Below the pieces are notes generated by a model. That model was given only the letters and a program-made list of their open reading frames with translations. It did not search any database and had not been told where the DNA came from. This document shows, in pieces, positions 39,073 through 50,732 of a stretch of 60,515 nt of DNA. The stretch comes from Pseudobdellovibrionaceae bacterium (GTDB taxonomy: Bacteria > Bdellovibrionota > Bdellovibrionia > Bdellovibrionales > JAMPXM01): contig CANHQR010000017.1 in the NCBI GenBank assembly GCA_947462815.1, positions 1 through 60,515 on the forward strand, written 5' to 3'. The position numbers were made by a program, and so were the translations under genes. The number at the start of each line of letters is the position of its first letter. The stretch's first letter is position 1.

Positions 39073-39103
39073 TTGACCTTCCCATGATGGCAAGCTTCAT
39101 CTT
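39073..39103 (+). promoter_or_regulatory. CueR-type copper-responsive promoter of copA
   Basis: TTGACC (39073-39078) and CATCTT (39098-39103) are separated by 19 bp, the overlong spacer typical of MerR-family promoters. The segment from 39076 is ACCTTCC-N7-GCAAGCT, matching the E. coli copA CueR site ACCTTCC-N7-GGAAGGT (from memory) in the whole left half and five of seven right-half bases. A CueR-like gene is encoded in the operon. The expected start of transcription, about 39110, coincides with the copA ATG. Confidence 0.75.
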
Positions 39104-39109
39104 TCTCGA

Positions 39110-41365
39110 ATGGAACAAAGGCTCCTGCTGAATGAAATGAAGTGCGCGGGGTGCGTGAACAAAGTCGACTCCACGCTCCGAAAGATCGATGGGATCCAGA
39201 ACGTTCGCGTCAACTTACTAACCCAAGAAGCGCGCTTCGATCTGGAAGACGACGGCAAACCCGACCAAGTTCGGCAGCGGCAAGAGCTTCTCACGACTCA
39301 GGCCATTTCCCAGCTTGAATCCTTAGGCTACAAAGTGCAGTTGAAGTCGGAGGTCAAAGCCTCCACAGTTCGCGAGCTCGCCGACGCGCGCGTGCGCGAT
39401 GAGAAGTGGCGCGCGATCTTTGCGCTGGCTCTGACCTTACCCATGTTGCTGCCCATGCTGTGGTCGGTATGGCCCATGCCCTCGCCTGAGGTGCAGCTGT
39501 TGCTGACAGGCCTGGTGATGCTGGGGGTGGGCACCTCGTTCGCGAAGCGCGCCCTCGCCAATCTCCGCCACTTGAGTTTTACGATGGACGTGTTGGTGTT
39601 TCTCGGCACCACAACCGCCTTCGCCTACTCTGTCTATCGTTGGCAAATCCATCGAGGTCATCATACTCACCTGTTTTTTGAATCGGCCGCGGCGATCTTG
39701 GCCTTCGTACAACTCGGAAAGTGGATGGAGGCCGTGGCCAAGAGGCGCGCGGGCTCGGCCCTTGAGTCGCTCAAGCGTCTGCAACCCGAAATCGTGCGTG
39801 TGAAAACTCCCAAGGGCGTGATCGAGAGAACATTGGAAGCCTTGCAGCCCGGCCATCTCCTGGTGACGCGAAGTGGGGAGCGCATCGCCTGCGACGGCGT
39901 CATCGCCGAGGGTGCGGCGAGTATTGATGAGAGTTCGATGACGGGAGAGAGCGCACCTCGCTGGGTGACGGCGGGCGACGCCGTTTACGGAGGCGCACTG
40001 GTCCTCGACAGTGAGATCATCACGCGAGTGTCGCATGCCGCGGATCGCGGCCTGCTCGCGCAAATGCTGGAGGCGCTCGAAAACGCCCAAGCAAAAAAAG
40101 ATAAGATCGCCCGTCTCGTCGATCGTTGGAGTGCGGTATTCGTGCCGCTGATTCTCGGCATTTCGGCTCTCGTCGCAATTGGCTACGGCGCCGTGACGGG
40201 AGACTGGAGTGAAGGCCTCATTCGGGCGATTGCGATTCTGGTGATCGCTTGCCCTTGCGCCCTTGGACTCGCCACGCCGACGGCTGTGATGGTCGCCTTG
40301 GGTGAAGCCGCAAAGCGCGGATTCATCATTCGCGATCCCGGAATCTTTGAAGTCGCACCTCGGCTACATCGGGCAGCCTTCGATAAGACCGGCACACTCA
40401 CTCGCGGTGAGCCCACGCTGCGAGAGTTCAGCCTCAATGAGGTCGACCTCGCCGCCGCCGCGGCACTGCAGACAAGCAGTACCCATCCCCTCGCGTTATC
40501 GCTTTTGGCCGAAGCCAAGAACCAGCAGCTTCAGCTGCCGACAGCCGATGAGGTCCGCGTCGTCGCGGGATCTGGAATTCAAGGTCGGGTCGGACACGGC
40601 TCAACGGCGCGACATCTCGCACTCGGTTCGGAGCGGTGGATGCAGGAAATGGGTTTGCACCCCAGCGAGAATCTCGACGCGTCCGCAGCAGGCACGCTGA
40701 GTTTTCTTGCCGATCTTGGCGCCAAGCGAATTCTCGGGCACTTGCGTTTTGTCGACGAGCTAAGACCCGAGTCGGCCGAACTTATTGATGCTCTTCGCGC
40801 CCAGGGCGTGAAGGTCGCGCTGCTCTCCGGAGATCGACACGCTGAAGTGGCTCGAATCGCGCGCGAACTCAAAATCGATGAAGCTCACGGCGAAATGCGG
40901 CCGCAAGATAAGGTCGCATGGATTCAAGCCGCCCAAGCTCGCGGCGAACATGTCGCTATGCTGGGCGATGGCATCAACGACTCGGCAGCCCTCGCGCAGG
41001 CCGATCTCGGCGTCGCAGTCAGCAGCGCCACGGAGATCGCCGGTCAAGCCGCCGCAGTCGTTTTACTCAACCCTGATCCTCGATCGCTGTTGCGCGTGAT
41101 TCTTCTCGCCCGAGCCACGCATCGTAAACTCTGGCAGAATCTAGCATGGGCATTCGGATACAATCTCATCGCCGTCCCCATGGCGGCGACCGGTCAACTC
41201 ACTCCAACTCTCGCGACCTTCGCGATGGGCTTCAGCTCCGTCAGCGTTGTCGTTTCAAGTCTCCTCCTGATCTTGTCGGTGCGACGGGCCGAAGCGAAGG
41301 CCGGCCTCAGCGGCGAGACTCAAGTCGCTAAGTCCGCATTCGCGATCGCTGGAGGTGGACAATGA
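39110..41365 (+). CDS. copA: Copper-exporting P1B-type ATPase
   Basis: 751 residues. The N-terminal metal-binding domain has MKCAGCVNKVDSTL (CxxC). P-type motifs: TGES (about 276), ACPCALGLATP in the membrane (CPC, about 382), DKTGTLTRG (phosphorylated Asp, about 425), the P1B HP motif in SSTHPLA, and GDGINDSAALAQADLGVA (about 618). The last membrane helices contain FGYNLIAVPMA and MGFSSVSVVVSSLL, the YN and MxxSS residues characteristic of Cu(I) pumps. ATG 39110 is needed to complete the first strand of the metal-binding domain, yet it lies about where transcription should begin. cueR starts within its stop codon (4-bp overlap). Confidence 0.96.
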   Translation: MEQRLLLNEMKCAGCVNKVDSTLRKIDGIQNVRVNLLTQEARFDLEDDGKPDQVRQRQELLTTQAISQLESLGYKVQLKSEVKASTVRELADARVRDEKWRAIFALALTLPMLLPMLWSVWPMPSPEVQLLLTGLVMLGVGTSFAKRALANLRHLSFTMDVLVFLGTTTAFAYSVYRWQIHRGHHTHLFFESAAAILAFVQLGKWMEAVAKRRAGSALESLKRLQPEIVRVKTPKGVIERTLEALQPGHLLVTRSGERIACDGVIAEGAASIDESSMTGESAPRWVTAGDAVYGGALVLDSEIITRVSHAADRGLLAQMLEALENAQAKKDKIARLVDRWSAVFVPLILGISALVAIGYGAVTGDWSEGLIRAIAILVIACPCALGLATPTAVMVALGEAAKRGFIIRDPGIFEVAPRLHRAAFDKTGTLTRGEPTLREFSLNEVDLAAAAALQTSSTHPLALSLLAEAKNQQLQLPTADEVRVVAGSGIQGRVGHGSTARHLALGSERWMQEMGLHPSENLDASAAGTLSFLADLGAKRILGHLRFVDELRPESAELIDALRAQGVKVALLSGDRHAEVARIARELKIDEAHGEMRPQDKVAWIQAAQARGEHVAMLGDGINDSAALAQADLGVAVSSATEIAGQAAAVVLLNPDPRSLLRVILLARATHRKLWQNLAWAFGYNLIAVPMAATGQLTPTLATFAMGFSSVSVVVSSLLLILSVRRAEAKAGLSGETQVAKSAFAIAGGGQ

Positions 41366-41772
41366 GAGGCGTCTACAACATTGGCCAGGCCTCTCACCTC
41401 AGTGGCGTTACCGCTAAAATGATCCGGCATTATGAGGCCATCGGCCTCTTGCCCGAAGCCAAGAGAACCGAATCGGGTTATCGCCAATACTCCAACGAAG
41501 ACGTGCACACTTTACGCTTCGTCAAAACTTCGCGCGACTTAGGTTTTTCCCTGCAAGAGATTCAGCAACTCCTTTCGCTTTGGTTCAACAAGCGCCGAGC
41601 GAGTCGCGATGTCCATCGGCTCGTGGAGAAACATGTGGATGAACTGAATCAAAAGATCATGGATCTCGAGCGCATGCGTGACTCACTCAAAAAACTCGCG
41701 CAATGTTGTCATGGCGACGAGAGACCTGAATGCCCCATCCTCGATCAACTCGCTGAGGGAGAGTCCACTTGA
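41362..41772 (+). CDS. cueR: MerR-family copper-responsive regulator (CueR-like)
   Basis: 136 residues. The N-terminal winged helix-turn-helix (YNIGQASHLSGVTAKMIRHYEAIGLLPEAKRTESGYRQY) is typical MerR. A dimerisation coiled coil follows (VEKHVDELNQKIMDLERMRDSL). The metal loop is QCCHGDERPECPI, with Cys116 and Cys124 eight residues apart as in CueR Cys112/Cys120, which reads Cu(I) and Ag(I). Its likely target is the operator at 39073-39103, giving feedback control of its own operon. The start overlaps copA by 4 bp, and cusA starts within its stop. Confidence 0.93.
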   Translation: MRGVYNIGQASHLSGVTAKMIRHYEAIGLLPEAKRTESGYRQYSNEDVHTLRFVKTSRDLGFSLQEIQQLLSLWFNKRRASRDVHRLVEKHVDELNQKIMDLERMRDSLKKLAQCCHGDERPECPILDQLAEGEST

Positions 41773-44700
41773 ACCCTTCATCACCGACGCCTCATCCTAT
41801 AGAAACCGATCACTCCCCACTCGACCGCCTCATTCATTGGTCGCTGCGCAATCGCCTGCTCGTCCTCGCATTTTCAGCCTTGGTTCTGGCTTGGGGCGGC
41901 TACGCGATCACGCATCTTCCCGTCGATGTGTTTCCCGACCTCAACAAACCGACGATCTCGGTGATGACCGAGGCTGAGGGCCTCGCCCCGGAGGAAACCG
42001 AAACTCTGGTGACAATTCCAATCGAGAGCGCCCTCCTGGGACTGCCAGATGTCGAGCGCGTTCGCTCGCAGTCCGGCGCGGGACTGAGCATAGTTTGGGT
42101 GGAGTTCGATTGGGACACGGACGTCTACCGAAACCGTCAGTTGGTGCAAGAGCGGCTAGCGATCGCGCGAGAGCGCTTGCCTCGCGACGTCCTGCCTCAG
42201 CTCGGACCGATTTCCTCGATCATGGGTGAAATCCAATTGGTCGGACTGGTGGCCGAAAAGGGCGCCGACCTGAGCCCTCTCGAGCTTCGCAATTTTGCCG
42301 ACTGGGTGGTACGGCCTCGTCTGATGGCCATCAACGGCGTCTCACAAGTCGTCGCCATCGGCGGCGGCGTTCGTCAGTATCAAATTCTACTGAGTGCCGA
42401 AAAGATTCAACAGCGCCAGTTGTCTCTGGCGACTATCGAGCATTCGATCGCGGAGATCTCCAAGAACACCTCGGGCGGCTTTATTGATTTGGACCAGCGC
42501 GAAAACCTGATCCGCATCATCGGCGGGGTCCGCGAAAAGGAAGAGATTCTCAATTCCTTTATGGGCTATCACCTCGGCCAGCCCGTGCGCGTCCGAGACG
42601 TCGCCACCGTCATCGAGGGCCCTCGCACGAAACGCGGCGATGCGAGCATCAACGCTGAGCCCGGCATCATTCTCAGCGTCCAGAAGGCGCCCGGCGCTTC
42701 GACGCTGGACCTCGCGAAGAGTCTCGATGTCGCCTTTGACGAGCTCGAACGACAGCTACCCGGGCAAGTGAAGTTGCATCGAAATCTCTTTCGTCAGGCC
42801 ACGTTCATAGAAACATCGGTTCACAATGTGATCGAGGCGCTGCGCGATGGATCGCTTCTCGTCATCGTTGTTCTCATGATGTTCCTCGCAAATCTCCGAA
42901 CCACAGCGATCACCTTAACCGCGATCCCCTTGAGCTTCGCCGTCTCTGCCCTGGTCTTCGAGCTGATGGGCATGACCGTCAACACCATGACGCTTGGCGG
43001 GTTGGCCGTCGCAATTGGTGAACTCGTCGACGATGCGATTGTCGACGTTGAAAACGTGTATCGACGCTTGCGGGAGAACGCCCTGAAGGCCGTACCGGAT
43101 CCGATCCTCGGTGTTGTGTTTCAGGCGTCCAGTGAAGTGCGAAACTCCATCGTCATCGCCACCCTCATTGTGATCGCTGTATTCTTCCCCCTGTTCGCAA
43201 TGAGCGGCATCGAAGGTCGCCTTTTCGCTCCCTTGGGGGTCGCCTATGTCGTCTCGATTCTCGCTTCGATGTTCGTCTCGCTGACACTCACGCCCGTGCT
43301 TTGCTCTTACCTTCTCGGCGGTCGTCAACTCAAAGAGCAATCTGAAACGCGCTTGGCGCGTTGGCTGAAGGCTCGACAGGCGGCATTTCTACGCGTGTGG
43401 TTGAATCGTAGCGGTTGGTGGCTCGCACCCGTCGCCGCGCTGTTTTTGTTCACCACCCTCATCGCCTTTCGCATGGACCGCGACTTTCTACCGCAGTTCA
43501 ATGAGGGAACAGCGACGATCAACTTACTCCTTGATCCCGGAGTCTCGCTGACCGAGTCGAATCGAATCGGTCAAGAGGCCGAACGCCTGATCGCCGCTGT
43601 GCCCGAAGTCCTATCCGTCTCAAGACGGACAGGGCGTGCGGAGATGGATGAGCATGCCGAGGGCGTTCACTATTCCGAAATCGACGTCGATTTTAAACCC
43701 TTGGAGGATTGGCGTAAGGGTCAGAGCAAAGAGAGCGTTCTGGAGGAGATCCGCTCACAGCTTGAAAAACTATCCGGCGTTTACTTCAATATTGGCCAGC
43801 CGATCTCGCACCGCCTCGATCACCTCACTTCGGGAGTTCGCGCTCAAATCGCCTTGAAAATCTTTGGCGAAGACCTCGCTGAACTTCGAGCCAAGGCCGC
43901 CGAAGTCGAGGGCGCACTTCAAAATATTGATGGTTTGGTGGATTTGCAGGTAGAGAGCCAAGCGCTGATTCCTCAGTTGAAGATTCAGATTCTTCGCGAG
44001 GAAGCCTCGCGCTACGGACTGACGACGGGCGATTTGGCGGATCTCTTGGAGCAAGCCCTCCAAGGGCGCGTTGTCGGACAAGTGATCGAAGGTCAACGCA
44101 GCGTCGATCTATTTTTGCGCTTTGATGAAGAGTCGCGGCGCAATCCCGAGCTGATCTCAAACACCATCGTAAAAGTCATGCCAGACGGACAAAGAATTCG
44201 CGTTGCCGATGTGGCCGACGTGTATGAGGCGGAAGGGCCTAACCTGATCGCTCGCGAAAATGCCTTACGCCGAATCGTGGTCTCAGCCAATACCTCGGGT
44301 CGCGCACTCTCGCCCGTGGTCGATGAGATTCGCAAGGCTCTCGATGACAAGGTCAAATTCGAAAGCGGTCTCAGCTATTCCATCGAAGGACAGTTTGAGT
44401 CTCAGGTGCGTGCCACGAGATTGATGACCGGACTTGGAGTGCTGTCGCTGATCCTCATCTTCACCATTCTGACGACCCACTTTAAATCGGCTTGGATGGC
44501 GGGCCAAGTCATGCTGAACGTCCCTCTGGCCCTGATCGGCGGCGTGCTCGCCATGCAGATCACCCAAATGCCGATGACCATTGCAAGCCTGCTGGCACTT
44601 GTGACGCTTGCTGGAATCGCCTCGCGAAATGGCATCATGATGCTTTCGCACTACTTACACCTCATGCGCTTTGAAGGTGAAAAATTCACCCTCGAAATGG

Positions 44701-44948
44701 TGGTGCGCGGCTCTTGTGAACGCCTCATTCCGGTCTTGATGACAGCGCTCACGGCGATCCTCGCCCTGTTGCCACTTCTCGTGGCGGCCGGAGCTCCCGG
44801 CAAAGAGATCTTGCATCCGCTCGCCGTGGTGATCACCGGTGGATTGCTGTCCTCGACGGCCTTGGATCTTGTCGTTACCCCCATGGTCTTCTGGAAGTTC
44901 AGCCGGAAAGCCGCGGAGCAAAGCTTAGCCAAAATGAAGTTCATTTAA
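41769..44948 (+). CDS. Heavy-metal RND efflux pump, CusA/CzcA family
   Basis: 1059 residues, a full-length inner-membrane trimeric pump. It starts at TTG 41769, overlapping the cueR stop (TTGA). The N-terminus has the first membrane span then ITHLPVDVFPDLNKPTISVMTEAEGLAPEE, diagnostic of the heavy-metal RND group. Span 4 carries GELVDDAIVDVENVYRRLREN, the proton-relay motif. The second half repeats the fold (RMDRDFLPQFNEGTATINLLLDPGVSL, VTLAGIASRNGIMMLSHYLH). With copA and cueR next door, copper or silver is the likely substrate. A canonical pump needs an adaptor, and none is encoded nearby. Confidence 0.95.
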   Translation: MNPSSPTPHPIETDHSPLDRLIHWSLRNRLLVLAFSALVLAWGGYAITHLPVDVFPDLNKPTISVMTEAEGLAPEETETLVTIPIESALLGLPDVERVRSQSGAGLSIVWVEFDWDTDVYRNRQLVQERLAIARERLPRDVLPQLGPISSIMGEIQLVGLVAEKGADLSPLELRNFADWVVRPRLMAINGVSQVVAIGGGVRQYQILLSAEKIQQRQLSLATIEHSIAEISKNTSGGFIDLDQRENLIRIIGGVREKEEILNSFMGYHLGQPVRVRDVATVIEGPRTKRGDASINAEPGIILSVQKAPGASTLDLAKSLDVAFDELERQLPGQVKLHRNLFRQATFIETSVHNVIEALRDGSLLVIVVLMMFLANLRTTAITLTAIPLSFAVSALVFELMGMTVNTMTLGGLAVAIGELVDDAIVDVENVYRRLRENALKAVPDPILGVVFQASSEVRNSIVIATLIVIAVFFPLFAMSGIEGRLFAPLGVAYVVSILASMFVSLTLTPVLCSYLLGGRQLKEQSETRLARWLKARQAAFLRVWLNRSGWWLAPVAALFLFTTLIAFRMDRDFLPQFNEGTATINLLLDPGVSLTESNRIGQEAERLIAAVPEVLSVSRRTGRAEMDEHAEGVHYSEIDVDFKPLEDWRKGQSKESVLEEIRSQLEKLSGVYFNIGQPISHRLDHLTSGVRAQIALKIFGEDLAELRAKAAEVEGALQNIDGLVDLQVESQALIPQLKIQILREEASRYGLTTGDLADLLEQALQGRVVGQVIEGQRSVDLFLRFDEESRRNPELISNTIVKVMPDGQRIRVADVADVYEAEGPNLIARENALRRIVVSANTSGRALSPVVDEIRKALDDKVKFESGLSYSIEGQFESQVRATRLMTGLGVLSLILIFTILTTHFKSAWMAGQVMLNVPLALIGGVLAMQITQMPMTIASLLALVTLAGIASRNGIMMLSHYLHLMRFEGEKFTLEMVVRGSCERLIPVLMTALTAILALLPLLVAAGAPGKEILHPLAVVITGGLLSSTALDLVVTPMVFWKFSRKAAEQSLAKMKFI

Positions 44949-44989
44949 CTCGTCTATTTAACTCGTCCATCAACAACAAGGAGTTTGGC

Positions 44990-45451
44990 GTGTCTCAAAA
45001 CCCACAAACAAAAATCACTCAAGTTCTCATGGCATCATCTTTCGCGATGCTGACTGTCTTCGCTCTCGTCTCGTTCAGCCATCAGGCCCAAGCCCATGAG
45101 GGACATCACGCACCCGTGAAGCTCAAGTCGAAGTACGGTGGCATGGTGAAAGCCGGCAAAGCCTTGGATCTTGAATATCGCGTCCAGCAGGGCGAATTGA
45201 AGGTTTGGCCACGAGCTCACGAAGGCGAACAACTTAAAGACGTGAAGATCGCAGCGACTCTGACTCCTCCGCGTGGAAAATCTCAAGCACTTCCGCTCAA
45301 CTGGGATACGGCGACGGGCCTTGCCGTTGCGAAGCTCGACTTCGGCAAATCGCATCGTTTAGCGATCGAAATCAGACTCGAGGCGATGGCTGACGTGAAC
45401 GGTCAACTGACCGCCATCCAAGAGCAATTCAAGTTTCAGGCTGAGAAGTGA
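44990..45451 (+). CDS. Small periplasmic His-containing protein, resembling the beta domain of some RND adaptors
   Basis: 153 residues from GTG 44990, with AAGGAG 7 nt upstream. A signal peptide ends at HQAQA, and the mature protein starts HEGHHAP, a plausible metal-binding end. The body (KYGGMVKAGKALDLEYRV, ELKVWPRAHEGEQLKDVKIAATLTPPRGKSQALPL, then HRLAIEIRLEAMADVNGQ) has the pattern I recall from a beta domain that precedes or follows the HlyD part of some CzcB/CusB-type adaptors (GG-V...ELQI...VYAY.DG..L...V..). The coiled-coil hairpin and lipoyl parts of an adaptor are absent. It overlaps the next gene by 4 bp (GTGA). Confidence 0.7.
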   Translation: MSQNPQTKITQVLMASSFAMLTVFALVSFSHQAQAHEGHHAPVKLKSKYGGMVKAGKALDLEYRVQQGELKVWPRAHEGEQLKDVKIAATLTPPRGKSQALPLNWDTATGLAVAKLDFGKSHRLAIEIRLEAMADVNGQLTAIQEQFKFQAEK

Positions 45452-46845
45452 GGTCGAGAGTGTCCAATTGCCGTGAGCTCCTGAGCTGTCGTCGCGATCG
45501 ATTTCCAGTGCGCCATCTGCGGAAGGCCGAACATTCCAAGACGCTTCATCGAACTTCATCGGGACCCTACTGGCGGCAGGCGGCTGGCGCGACGATCCTC
45601 ATACTCTCTCTGGCGACCGGGACAACATACGCTGATCCCGCTCGCGAAGCTTCGGCTCGATCTAACTTGGCTACTACGAATTCAGCCGAATCGGCACCGA
45701 CAGGGCATCGCCATTTGAGCCTCGAAGAGGCCATTGCATCCGCACCGAATGTGAAAGCGGCTGAACTCACTTTCAAGGCTCGGCAGTCCGCGACTCGCTT
45801 GTTCCAGTCGGCCTACGGACCACGCGTCGATGCCTTTTTCGGCGCACAAGATAAACGCGAAGGCCCGGAATTGGATCGCGGCGGAATTGCGGGCGTGGAA
45901 CTGAAGTGGAACCTATGGCGCGGCGGCGGAGATCGCGCCCGCCTCCAGCAAGGTGAAGCCGAAGTCGCGATCGCCGAGATCGAATACCGTCGGCAACAAC
46001 AAATCATGCGAGGCGAACTCTTGATGAAGGTTGGGCGCGCCTTGATGGCCCACGAACTCGTGATGATCGAAGAGCGCGAGCTGACCTTAAATCAAGAGCA
46101 CAGCGACATGGCTCAACGCAAAGTTGCAGCGGGTCTCACCAGCCGCATCGACAAGCTCGAGTTTGAGTTGCGACGCAACGAGATCGAAGCCCGCCTCGAA
46201 GACTATCGAACGCAACTTCAGGATCAACTCGCGCGCCTCGCGAGCTTCGGCTTGGGCGATCCCAAAAGCTCCCCGGAGTTGACGCAGGCCTGGCGCGAGC
46301 ACTTGAAACTGAATCCTCGGCTTCAAGAATCTCTCGAGATCTTGGCGGCGGAACCGATCGTGCGCGTTCAGCAGCTCCAGGCGGACTCGGCCAAATCAAC
46401 CCGCTGGGGCGAACTCGATCTGCTCGCCTCGGCGGGCCGACTACGGGCCGTCGATCAGCGCACCGACTTCGATGATCGGCACTTTGAATTGAAAATCCGA
46501 ATTCCTCTGTGGGCCAGTGGACAAATCCAATCCAGAGTGGATGAGGCCCAAGCTTTTCTCTCGCGCGAAGAGAGCCGGCTCAGCGAACTGCGGCGGCAAA
46601 AGCAGGTCGAACGCTTAGATCTAGAGCGCCAGGTCTCAAGCACTCGACGACTTCTCGATCTCGCCAAGTCTCGCGTGCAAAGGGCGCAGAACTATTTTGA
46701 CATGACGACAGCCGAGTACCGTCGCGGTATCAAAAACTCTCCGGACCTTGCATCGGCATCGGAGTTGCTATTTGAGGCCCACAAGCACCGAGCCGAGCTC
46801 GAACTTCGGCTCGGGGAACTTCTGGCAAAAACACTGGCATTTTGA
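45448..46845 (+). CDS. TolC-family outer membrane efflux protein
   Basis: 465 residues from GTG 45448, with the start codon inside the previous stop. A long basic N-region and hydrophobic stretch (AAGATILILSLATGTTYA) give a late signal peptide. The mature part has the TolC repeat pattern: HLSLEEAIASAPNVKAAELTFKARQSATRLFQSAYGPRVDAFFG, IAGVELKWNLWRGGGDRARLQQGEAE, long helices, then FELKIRIPLWASGQIQSRVDEAQAFLSREESRL in the second repeat. It would form the exit duct for the RND pump. The 3' end is 7 bp from thiQ, convergent. Confidence 0.88.
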   Translation: MRSRVSNCRELLSCRRDRFPVRHLRKAEHSKTLHRTSSGPYWRQAAGATILILSLATGTTYADPAREASARSNLATTNSAESAPTGHRHLSLEEAIASAPNVKAAELTFKARQSATRLFQSAYGPRVDAFFGAQDKREGPELDRGGIAGVELKWNLWRGGGDRARLQQGEAEVAIAEIEYRRQQQIMRGELLMKVGRALMAHELVMIEERELTLNQEHSDMAQRKVAAGLTSRIDKLEFELRRNEIEARLEDYRTQLQDQLARLASFGLGDPKSSPELTQAWREHLKLNPRLQESLEILAAEPIVRVQQLQADSAKSTRWGELDLLASAGRLRAVDQRTDFDDRHFELKIRIPLWASGQIQSRVDEAQAFLSREESRLSELRRQKQVERLDLERQVSSTRRLLDLAKSRVQRAQNYFDMTTAEYRRGIKNSPDLASASELLFEAHKHRAELELRLGELLAKTLAF

Positions 46846-46852
46846 GATCGAC

Positions 46853-47506
46853 TCATTTGCTAGATCGCAGACGTCCGTTCTCGATATCGATGACTTTGGT
46901 CGCCAAAGCATCGACGTCTGCAGGGTCGTGCGTGACGAGTAGCGCGGGACAAGCCTCTTCATGCAGCACCTGCTGGAGAAGCTGACGCGCCTCAGCCCGC
47001 AAGTCTTGATCGAGAGCTGCGAAAGGTTCATCGAGAAGTAGAAATCGCGGCTGCCCGATGAGAGCTCGCGCCAAAGCCACACGCTGCTTTTCACCGCCTG
47101 AAAGCTTTTCGGCTCGCCGTTCGAGGATCGGCTCGAGACTCAGTCGCTGGATCAAGCGCCTCAAACGATTCGCGGTCGAAGCTGGATCTAAACCTCGAGC
47201 TTCTGCAGCGAAGCTCAGGTTTTGCTGGGCACTCAAATGCGGGAAGAGTTCATAGCTCTGAAAGACAACGCCCAGACGCCGATCGCGTACGGAAAGTTCG
47301 GCGAGATTGATTTCACGTCCTTGATCTTGGATCCACCACTCGAAACCGTCGCAAGGCTCAAGGCCCGTCAGAATTCGCAGCACGCTGGTTTTTCCGGATC
47401 CCGAGGGGCCTCGCAAGACGGTCACGCCTTGATCACTCAATTCCATCAACGGAATTTCAAGACGGAAGCCGTCGTAGTCCTTGATGAGACCGCGAATCTG
47501 GGACAT
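46853..47506 (-). CDS. thiQ: ABC transporter ATPase, ThiQ-like (thiamine)
   Basis: 217 residues. Walker A GPSGSGKTS, Q-loop VVFQSYELFPHLSAQQNL, signature LSGGEKQRVALARAL, Walker B RFLLLDEPFAALD and the H-loop LLVTHDPADVDAL are all intact. Short length and position after the permease fit ThiQ of the thiBPQ thiamine/thiamine-pyrophosphate importer. It lies 68 bp after the permease gene on the same strand. Confidence 0.87.
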   Translation of the reverse strand: MSQIRGLIKDYDGFRLEIPLMELSDQGVTVLRGPSGSGKTSVLRILTGLEPCDGFEWWIQDQGREINLAELSVRDRRLGVVFQSYELFPHLSAQQNLSFAAEARGLDPASTANRLRRLIQRLSLEPILERRAEKLSGGEKQRVALARALIGQPRFLLLDEPFAALDQDLRAEARQLLQQVLHEEACPALLVTHDPADVDALATKVIDIENGRLRSSK

Positions 47507-47574
47507 GTCACTTCCTCCTGCGAGCTTCGAAAATGGACTTCCAGAACGAACTTCAGAGCCTCAAAATCCCCAGC

Positions 47575-49041
47575 TCACTCTCGTCGCCGCAATAGGTTCT
47601 GCGTGATGGCGGCTTGCACAATGCCCATCAACAAACACAAGACAATGCAAAGCGCAGCGGCTTCCAGACGATAGGCCTGCATCAAGTCTCGAGCGACCAG
47701 AGCCAAACTTTGCGATCGACCCGCGACCACCGAACTCAACGCAAAATCACCCCAGGCCCAAAACGCGGCCAGGCCCGCCACCCAAGCTAAGTCATTACGA
47801 ATTGCCGGCACGACCACTCTTGCGGCAATCAACGAGTCTCGTGCGCCCAAGCATCTCGCAACTTCAACTTGTCGATCGAGCTCCGCAAGACGCGGGGCAA
47901 TTCGCCATCTCCAGAGCGCCGGAGCAAACATCAAGCTGCAACCCACGATGATGCGGAGGAGATCCATCTCAAAGCCGTGCCCCTCGCCGAGAGCCAAGGT
48001 GGCAAAGCCCAACAGCACGGCCGAGGGCGTGGTGTAAGCGGAAAGCCATTGACGCTCGCGTTGATCCGGAAGTCCGCGCGCCACCAGCCAAAGCCCCAAC
48101 GCTACAAAAACCGACGTTCCGAAGGCGACAAGCCCTGAGGCTAAAATTGCGCGAGGCAGTTCGCGCCAAAGCGTGGGGTCAAACTGAGCCACACCGATTC
48201 CCGCTCGTGCGAGCAGTGTACCGAGCATCGCGGCTGCGGGAAGTAGCCCGAGAGCCAAACTCCACCGCGAGCCCAGATGCTCTCGCAATCGAGCACGCGT
48301 CGCCATCTGATCTTCACCGCGAGGGCGCAAGAGCGTTACCAGAAAAACGAGCAAGAGCAGTTGGATGAGCGACAGACTCAGAGCTGCCGACCAATTCATC
48401 TCGAGCTGCAAAGCCTGATAGATCCCCATTTCAAAATTGATCGCCTGTCGCCCTCCGAGCACCAATGGGATGGAAAAGCTCGTGAGGGCCACGGCCAGCA
48501 CGAAGGTGAAACCCTGCCGAAGCTCACCGCTCAATCCGGATAGGAGGGCCCGGCGCCAGATCATCCGCGGCGAAGCTCCCTCAGCAATTGCCAATTCGAC
48601 GGCGCCCGCCCAGCGACTCTCTAAGCCGCGGGCCAAGCTCACCGCCACCAAACCCGCATTCATGATCGCTTGTACAAAAATCACCGCCGTGAGGCCCCGC
48701 CACCCAGGGAACAAATCCAACCAAGTGAGAATGGGAACAAGTGCAGGAACAGCGGCCGGCAAAATGAGCGCCCACGTGAAAACACCTTGGGCCCGCAAAG
48801 CACCGGGCACCAAAATGAGCCCCAAGAGGACGGCAAGAGCGGCTGTACCTCCCGCCATGAGCAAACTGCGCCCCAAAAGCTCCGTCGCTCCCTCTGGCCA
48901 ATACAGTCGTCCGCCTGCAAACCTCCACGTCATCGCATAGGGTGCGAGCAGAACAAACAGCAAGGGAAGAAAAATGGGCCACAAAGCCCAGCGGACACTT
49001 GTTCCACGAAAATTGAGTCCCGCGAACATCAGCCAACCCAC
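47575..49041 (-). CDS. thiP: ABC transporter permease, ThiP-like (two fused permease halves)
   Basis: 488 residues with about 12 hydrophobic segments. Each half carries an EAA loop: LAIAEGASPRMIWRRALLSGLSGEL in the first and VARCLGARDSLIAARVVVPAI in the second. This double-permease layout is that of ThiP and FbpB-type importers. The GTG at 49041 and the ATG at 49029 are both possible starts. The substrate assignment rests on the neighbouring ThiB-like protein, 13 bp upstream. Confidence 0.87.
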   Translation of the reverse strand: MGWLMFAGLNFRGTSVRWALWPIFLPLLFVLLAPYAMTWRFAGGRLYWPEGATELLGRSLLMAGGTAALAVLLGLILVPGALRAQGVFTWALILPAAVPALVPILTWLDLFPGWRGLTAVIFVQAIMNAGLVAVSLARGLESRWAGAVELAIAEGASPRMIWRRALLSGLSGELRQGFTFVLAVALTSFSIPLVLGGRQAINFEMGIYQALQLEMNWSAALSLSLIQLLLLVFLVTLLRPRGEDQMATRARLREHLGSRWSLALGLLPAAAMLGTLLARAGIGVAQFDPTLWRELPRAILASGLVAFGTSVFVALGLWLVARGLPDQRERQWLSAYTTPSAVLLGFATLALGEGHGFEMDLLRIIVGCSLMFAPALWRWRIAPRLAELDRQVEVARCLGARDSLIAARVVVPAIRNDLAWVAGLAAFWAWGDFALSSVVAGRSQSLALVARDLMQAYRLEAAALCIVLCLLMGIVQAAITQNLLRRRE

Positions 49042-49054
49042 TTCGCTGGTTGTT

Positions 49055-50164
49055 TCATAGTTCGGCCTCTTGCCACTTCTTCAGCAAGTTTTCTCGTTGT
49101 GCGGGCCAACTCTCGAGACGCTTCAGAGAGGTCTTGAGGCGTTCGGCACGTTCGAAGGTCTTTGCAAAGGCCTCTTGTCCGGGCGCAAAAGCAACTTCGC
49201 GTCTTACCGGAAGCATCCAATTGTGTCGCATAATCAACGTCTGTCCCTCGTGCGAAAGCATCAACATCAAAAATCTTTCCGCAACCTCACAAGCTCGACA
49301 GTCCGCCGGAATCGCCGCGTACTCGATCTGAATGGGGTGAAAGGAATTTTCACCCCACTCAGGAACAAGACCCGATGAGCCCGCGGCCTGTTCATCAAAC
49401 CAAGCGAATCGATAGCGATCATCTTTCTCTTCGAGAGCATGATAGATCGGCGAAGTGGCGTAGCTTAAAACGAGCGGTGCCTCGCCGCGGGTGAACAGAC
49501 CATAGGCTTGAGACCACGATGAGGTGACCGAGAACACATTCGCTTTCAAATCACGCAGATACTGAAAGCCGCCGCGTTCACCGAACGTGGCCATGACCCA
49601 AAATAAAAACTGCAGGCCGGGCGATGAGGATCGTGGATCCTGTAAGAGCAAGGCGCGCTCAAAGTGCTTGCTCTGCAGGTCGCTCAAGGATCGCGGTATA
49701 GATTTGGGCTCGCCTTCTCGATAGACAAAGCCGATGGGTGCCCAATCGAAGGCGACGAAACGAGGGTCTCGAAACTCCTCGGGGACACGTTCCGTGACTC
49801 CGCTGGCAATTTCACGCCACCCGAAGGCCTGACCTTGAGAAGGACGCGGCTTGAACTCCGCCATGTGCCGGCCGAATTGATCCAAGCCGATGACCAGATC
49901 GCTGGGAAAATGCTCGAGCTTCGCCAGCATAACCCCCGCGTCGTCGGCCTGAATCAACTCGACACGAACTTTCTCACGCGCTTCAAACAACTCGACCAGC
50001 TGTGGTCCGGGCCCCCAACTCGATACGAAACTCGAATAGGCAAGAATTCGCAGTCTCGGCCCAAGGCCAATGGCTTCGTCGGATGAGTCGCCCCACTTCG
50101 GCCAACGATCGCGAGCCGCAACAAAAATCAGCACGCCAAAGACGACCAAGGCCAAGATGGCCAT
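49055..50164 (-). CDS. thiB: Thiamine-binding protein, ThiB-like, membrane-anchored
   Basis: 369 residues from ATG 50164, with AAAGGA 5 nt upstream; the frame is open further upstream but unconvincing. One hydrophobic segment (AILALVVFGVLIFVAA) is followed by a charged residue rather than a clear cleavage site, so it may remain anchored. The body matches ThiB in sequence order: RILAYSSFVSSWGPGPQL, SDLVIGLDQFG, FVAFDWAPIGFVY, LLQDPRSSSPGLQFLFWVM, SSWSQAYGLFTRGEAPLVLSY, TSPIYHALEEKDDRYRF and NWMLPVRREVAF. It delivers thiamine or its phosphates to ThiPQ. No TPP riboswitch was seen upstream; a DoxX-like gene lies 55 bp before it. Confidence 0.88.
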   Translation of the reverse strand: MAILALVVFGVLIFVAARDRWPKWGDSSDEAIGLGPRLRILAYSSFVSSWGPGPQLVELFEAREKVRVELIQADDAGVMLAKLEHFPSDLVIGLDQFGRHMAEFKPRPSQGQAFGWREIASGVTERVPEEFRDPRFVAFDWAPIGFVYREGEPKSIPRSLSDLQSKHFERALLLQDPRSSSPGLQFLFWVMATFGERGGFQYLRDLKANVFSVTSSWSQAYGLFTRGEAPLVLSYATSPIYHALEEKDDRYRFAWFDEQAAGSSGLVPEWGENSFHPIQIEYAAIPADCRACEVAERFLMLMLSHEGQTLIMRHNWMLPVRREVAFAPGQEAFAKTFERAERLKTSLKRLESWPAQRENLLKKWQEAEL

Positions 50165-50219
50165 ACCCGTCCTTTGAAATCTCGAGGTCGACGAGGAGTT
50201 CGCCGGGGGAGTCACAAGT

Positions 50220-50732
50220 TCACCACCACAAGCCGCGGCGACGCTTATAGAAGAAGTAATCGAAGCCCAGGCAACGACCAGCACCAATCCAACCCAGCAC
50301 GAGATGCAAAACCAACATGAAAGTGGTCGCCTGGAAATTGATGCTTGCACCCGTCGAGCCTGTCGCGTTGATGCCAACGGCACCCATCAGTGCCATTGAC
50401 ATCAGCACGCCGATCAGGGCAGCAGGGCGAACCGCGAGCCCAATGATGTAACTGACGCCGATGAACAGCTGCAACGTGGTGAGTGAAATCGCGAAGACCT
50501 GCCAATTCGAGATCGCGACGTTCTCCAAAAACCATCGATACCATTCTGGAGCTGTCGAGTTCGGGAGATGCTGGCGGATGTCTTCGGCAAGGTAGGCTTT
50601 GACCAGATAGTCGCTCTGGAATGAAGCCAAGGCATGCTTGAAGTAATAGCCACCCAAAAAAATCCGCAAGCAGGCCACGGGAATCAGGTGACCGATGTAC
50701 TTAAAACTCTCCACAAATGCGACGAGCAGCAT
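50220..50732 (-). CDS. DoxX/DoxD-like membrane protein
   Basis: 170 residues from ATG 50732 (frame open to 50768). About four hydrophobic helices, with the family pattern IPVACLRIFLGGYYFKHAL at the start, VFAISLTTLQLFIGVSYIIGLAVRPAALIGVLMSMALMG in the middle and FMLVLHLVLGWIGAGRCLGFDYFFYKR at the end. DoxX relatives act in respiratory-chain or redox membranes, but the function here is not evident. The thiB start is 55 bp downstream on the same strand, so the two may share a transcript. Confidence 0.8.
   Translation of the reverse strand: MLLVAFVESFKYIGHLIPVACLRIFLGGYYFKHALASFQSDYLVKAYLAEDIRQHLPNSTAPEWYRWFLENVAISNWQVFAISLTTLQLFIGVSYIIGLAVRPAALIGVLMSMALMGAVGINATGSTGASINFQATTFMLVLHLVLGWIGAGRCLGFDYFFYKRRRGLWW

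Follow-up and report, generated by a model that had tools for sequence, protein, structure and literature searches.

The window analysed here, a 60,515-nt stretch of the genome of a Pseudobdellovibrionaceae bacterium, carries a five-gene operon. This is probably a unit for metal export under copper induction, from an HME-RND branch without adaptors, and includes a CrdA-like copper chaperone that we call sml. The prevailing view is that an RND pump can use a TolC-type channel only with the help of an adaptor. That a lineage of predatory bacteria, the Bdellovibrionota, keeps pump, channel and small protein without an adaptor makes the need for one directly testable.

Results

A CueR-type promoter/operator (39073-39097, + strand; TTGACC and a 19-nt spacer with ACCTTCC-N7-GCAAGCT) lies just 5' of copA (39110-41365), which encodes a Cu-exporting P1B-type ATPase with an HMA domain (TIGR01511, 456 bits). 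On the same + strand follow cueR (41362-41772), for a Cu(I)-responsive MerR-family regulator (TIGR02044, 164.7 bits, above the curated cut-off of 147.4), and the gene of an HME-RND permease of the CusA/CzcA family and the NieA-type HAEGVH/HRLDH subgroup (41769-44948; TIGR00914, 775.4 bits, above the curated cut-off of 701.45). They are succeeded by sml (44990-45451), which encodes a 153-aa secreted, possibly CrdA-like beta-sandwich protein with the predicted mature N-terminus HEGHH, and by the gene of a TolC-like outer-membrane factor, an OEP channel (45448-46845; PF02321, 1.7e-31). Three of the gene junctions overlap by 4 nt; the remaining one, between permease and sml, is a 41-nt gap in which AAGGAG precedes the GTG start codon of sml. 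The original prediction had described copA, cueR, a pump, a 153-residue protein and a TolC-like channel as one tight unit, and all five genes were found where it had placed them. Reading of the genes from copA to the channel revealed no adaptor. Set against the CBA tripartite plan, the window unit thus has the OEP-family channel and lacks the membrane-fusion adaptor. Convergent to the operon, on the - strand (46853-50383), are genes for an ABC ATPase, a permease and a solute-binding protein, a separate uptake-type transporter.

The operator was identified by comparison with what we take to be the E. coli copA promoter. It is the single exact match in the 3.43-Mb genome to a pattern that was loosened after the window site had been read, a stricter first pattern having missed that site. 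Operators of the same type stand 5' of copA/cueR in relatives, at L047 with 2 mismatches and at L062 with 0 and 1 mismatches.

A survey of the phylum found sml homologues in 130 of 369 genomes. The usual order at the 78 loci read was permease, sml, channel; a few related loci, fetched later, had sml after permease and channel, or began with the channel. In a tree of 148 permeases, 80 further permease loci drawn from all bacteria being included, 111 permeases (the window's among them) fell together in a single clade (support 1.0) within a larger assembly of permeases that have adaptors. Judged by organism names such as Bacteriovoracaceae, Bdellovibrionaceae, Halobacteriovorax and Oligoflexus, most of this clade belongs to the Bdellovibrionota. 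A profile of adaptors built from the fetched loci detected none within the unit at any of 108 clade loci, but did detect an adaptor at 28 of the 31 other tree loci; at L067, L071 and L149 an adaptor lies in a separate neighbouring operon, outside the unit. The sml gene was seen at all 105 adaptor-less loci where the contig was long enough, being absent only at L134, L163 and L170, where the contig stops. It was seen in only 7 of the 31 other tree loci, a count that is biased because the sml model was built from the adaptor-less clade. The computations therefore strongly support the missing adaptor as a phylum-wide trait and not a local accident, as the conserved arrangement in related genomes indicates. 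Our searches of the literature on adaptor-less RND systems and on RND adaptors in Bdellovibrio returned nothing relevant within the library covered.

The pump had been labelled CusA-type. Its membership of the CusA/CzcA family holds, with TIGR00914 above its cut-off; it is not CusA proper, lacking the methionines that are diagnostic of CusA, which makes the label a loose one. The CusA triad M573/M623/M672, in what we take to be the E. coli numbering of these and the following CusA residues, corresponds to N585, Y635 and H685 in the window permease, and the third site is a histidine in 111/111 clade permeases. E939 and K984 are replaced by R and V, and D405 is kept. The window permease has both HAEGVH and HRLDH. 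The first motif is found in 11/11 sister-clade permeases and in 61/111 of those in the window's clade, and HR[IL]DH in 11/11 and 80/111, respectively.

The structure of sml was modelled by AlphaFold2 as an eight-stranded beta sandwich with a mean pLDDT of 86.7, which strongly supports this fold. Two homologous groups, sml and sml2, can be distinguished (hhalign 99.9%). Their members have a signal peptide and, with the cleavage site inferred from a small-x-small pattern, a predicted mature N-terminal His (99/114 sml, 28/31 sml2), as in the starts HEGHDH, HDEGHG and HGEDKPG. Outside the N-terminal stretch the 114 sml homologues average 1.7 Met and 4.9 His, and there is no methionine-rich Cu(I) site. 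No sequence family matching sml was found in Pfam, NCBIfam or the PDB, PDB sequence searches with sml itself and with both profiles gave nothing credible, and no relatives of the window sml were found in viral contigs or on plasmids. When the model was compared with the PDB by Foldseek, a DUF4426 protein came first, followed by H. pylori CrdA (9ll2, E 3.8e-4, TM 0.40/0.54; silver-bound 9ll4, E 6.3e-4). With moderate TM-scores, and with many of the common Ig-like folds listed below CrdA, the likeness to CrdA is a lead and not a proof.

The 153-residue protein had been thought to be an adaptor-type domain, and this part of the original prediction did not hold. The sml profile gave an hhalign probability of 3.1% against 25 adaptors including CusB, with no homology to MPD, barrel, lipoyl or hairpin parts, and below 1% against adaptor N-terminal extensions; the 50 best PDB fold matches of the sml model included no adaptor. 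Adaptor-profile matches with E ~5e-5 were also considered and rejected: they covered the signal peptide and the His motif, and disappeared with mature sequences. Moreover, sister-clade permeases (Aquabacterium L189, Herminiimonas L176, Hyphomicrobiaceae L175 and others) are accompanied by both a full adaptor and a stand-alone sml. Since sml thus occurs beside full adaptors and has no adaptor profile similarity, it is an inherited accessory and not a cut-down adaptor. Tandem two-domain versions of sml are found 3' of adaptor-bearing permeases (L193:3716-4450, L196:10308-11261). The window genome also has an sml2 copy with the start HGENHPGPNGGE (L024:7096-7557; G000 contig C12:51188-51517), alone between rnhB and rplS-like genes and away from any pump.

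It could still be argued that sml acts as a minimal adaptor of a new kind, not homologous to the known ones, and that a number of copies would ring the top of the permease, dock the channel and so replace the membrane-fusion protein. The biased co-occurrence of sml with the adaptor-less loci, the position of its gene mostly between those of permease and channel, the mini-adaptors of the same phylum described below, and BesA of Borrelia, in which an adaptor has lost its hairpin (PMC3807786), all speak for such a bridge. Yet sml resembles adaptor domains neither in sequence nor in fold, its homologues stand beside full adaptors, a mature protein of ~12 kDa is small for spanning the periplasm and sml2 stands alone beside rnhB, away from pumps; we regard this reading as unlikely. 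Its broadest form, in which RND metal exporters of the whole phylum would dispense with membrane-fusion adaptors and the His-tipped sml would be a new, unrelated bridging ring to the TolC-type channel, appears doubtful as well. The role of metal chaperone, one of the two roles first proposed for the protein, is the better reading, and we favor a copper chaperone of the CrdA-like kind.

Reduced adaptors do exist elsewhere in the phylum. Mini-adaptors of 130-202 residues, found in 123/369 genomes, are similar to adaptors only in the C-terminal, membrane-proximal region (TIGR01730 249-314 of 322; CusB 324-388, hhalign 92%). In the 20 loci read they always adjoin a CusA/CzcA-type permease gene, mostly with a channel-size gene on the other side. 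Examples are P0001 of the window genome (G000 contig C20:49057-49479), L134:3595-3987, L051:3113-3715 and L210-L229; a mini-adaptor structure predicted alone had a pLDDT of 36.8 and was set aside. Adaptor reduction thus recurs in the phylum, as these MPD-only proteins indicate.

An adaptor might instead be supplied in trans, one of the genome's own MacA-type proteins being a candidate. The window genome (3.43 Mb, 96% complete) has six RND permeases and two convincing adaptor genes only, according to two adaptor profiles with which a third agrees. Both are followed by MacB-type ABC transporter genes and are MacA-type partners of these. Profile searches and reading of the loci found no full-length adaptor gene near any RND pump of this genome, so that a full adaptor is missing from the unit and from the surroundings of the other pumps alike. 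A search of the whole genome for an adaptor under the same operator found none, the operator having its one exact match in the window and neither MacA-type gene having an exact CueR-site match nearby. As candidates for an adaptor serving the pump from elsewhere, these MacA-type genes were the only ones found, and they are improbable ones. The other RND permeases (L016, L017, L018 and L019, on contigs C19, C6, C44 and C37) likewise stand without a nearby adaptor gene, and on contig C6 a channel gene adjoins the RND permease.

In favor of supply in trans, 31 of the 32 unit-bearing genomes carry at least one adaptor gene. Residues that we presume to contact the adaptor, e.g. R771 and R777, are mostly conserved in the adaptor-less permeases. 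Apart from single-residue differences, no extra or compensating domain was found in the permease, and the channels of the loci (~400-450 residues) are not enlarged; the persisting contact residues and the want of a replacement domain count against the adaptor-less explanation. On the other side, both adaptors of the window genome belong to MacAB-type ABC operons without a CueR site, and the genome G045 (99% complete) carries the unit but, by two profiles, has no adaptor: there is no match with E of 1e-5 or lower, and HlyD_3 reaches only E 0.77. Supply in trans is, on this evidence, quite improbable. It is more improbable still that permease and channel act separately, with a pump that takes metal no further than between cytoplasm and periplasm, and with a channel that serves other exporters: no bridging component was identified and other RND pumps of the genome stand without an adaptor, but at almost all loci the channel gene has stayed next to those of permease and sml, and in the window it overlaps sml.

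Discussion

Our results support the notion that the window operon represents a variant of the HME-RND system. The original prediction of a variant tripartite arrangement is borne out in that the adaptor is indeed absent, a search of the genome gave no co-regulated one and the arrangement is conserved in the phylum. In the adaptor-less export unit that we favor, Cu(I) would be sensed by CueR, which would switch on the operon, and CopA would move Cu(I) from the cytoplasm to the periplasm. There, sml, a beta-sandwich protein with an N-terminal His motif, may bind copper and hand it to the permease, a role that has been proposed for CrdA and CusF. Copper export without a membrane-fusion protein would then fall to the permease and the TolC-like channel encoded with it; the two may be joined by direct docking, by an sml bridge or by loose coupling.

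Copper is the likely metal of the window unit, because the unit holds the CueR operator, cueR and copA, because copA and cueR recur at clade loci (17/108 and 5/108, respectively) and because a CsoR-family gene is present at L044. The NieA-like motifs of the pump might count against this reading, since HAEGVH and HRLDH of NieA are nickel sites that were proposed from sequence alone (PMC7060636).

Adaptor loss from an adaptor-bearing ancestor is strongly supported. Sister-clade operons have a channel, an extra protein, an adaptor, a permease and sml, and betaproteobacterial plasmids are annotated with the order TolC protein, hypothetical, adaptor, permease and a second hypothetical, which is the sml homologue; this plasmid order is similar to nieIC-cep-nieBA (PMC7060636). 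Given these operons, the simplest history is that the ancestor of the Bdellovibrionota clade lost the adaptor and cep from such an operon and retained sml. The adaptor-less clade, its one nearly complete adaptor-free genome and the MPD-only mini-adaptors are natural minimal systems in which the role of the adaptor and pump-channel coupling might be tested.

Among known systems, nieIC-cep-nieBA of Cupriavidus neocaledonicus and relatives, the proposed HME class 6 (PMC7060636), shares the HAEGVH/HRLDH permease with the window operon; the sister clade holds the operons of Herminiimonas and Aquabacterium, and related plasmid operons have an sml-like gene directly 3' of the permease. In contrast to the window operon, with its copA, cueR and copper regulation, nie-type operons retain cep along with a complete adaptor, and nickel is their proposed metal. 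In H. pylori, the periplasmic copper-binding CrdA is encoded with CrdB, CzcB and CzcA, and binds through methionines, having no histidines (PMC9182242). The window unit similarly encodes a small periplasmic protein together with a channel and an RND pump, and CrdA is among the best fold matches of sml; however, the H. pylori system keeps the adaptor CzcB, and the Met-rich, His-free CrdA has no detectable sequence similarity to sml. E. coli CusCFBA resembles the unit in its CusA/CzcA-family permease, TolC-like channel, small periplasmic metal protein (CusF) and copper regulation. It differs in that CusB is absent from the window unit and the Met triad and E939/K984 are replaced; at the loci read, a phmmer search with CusF gave no CusF-like gene. 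Finally, BesABC of Borrelia burgdorferi is an RND system with a reduced adaptor, BesA, which is the published exception that we found: it has lost the hairpin only and has kept MPD, barrel and lipoyl parts (PMC3807786), whereas the adaptor is wholly absent from the window unit and more than 100 conserved operons described here do without any adaptor.
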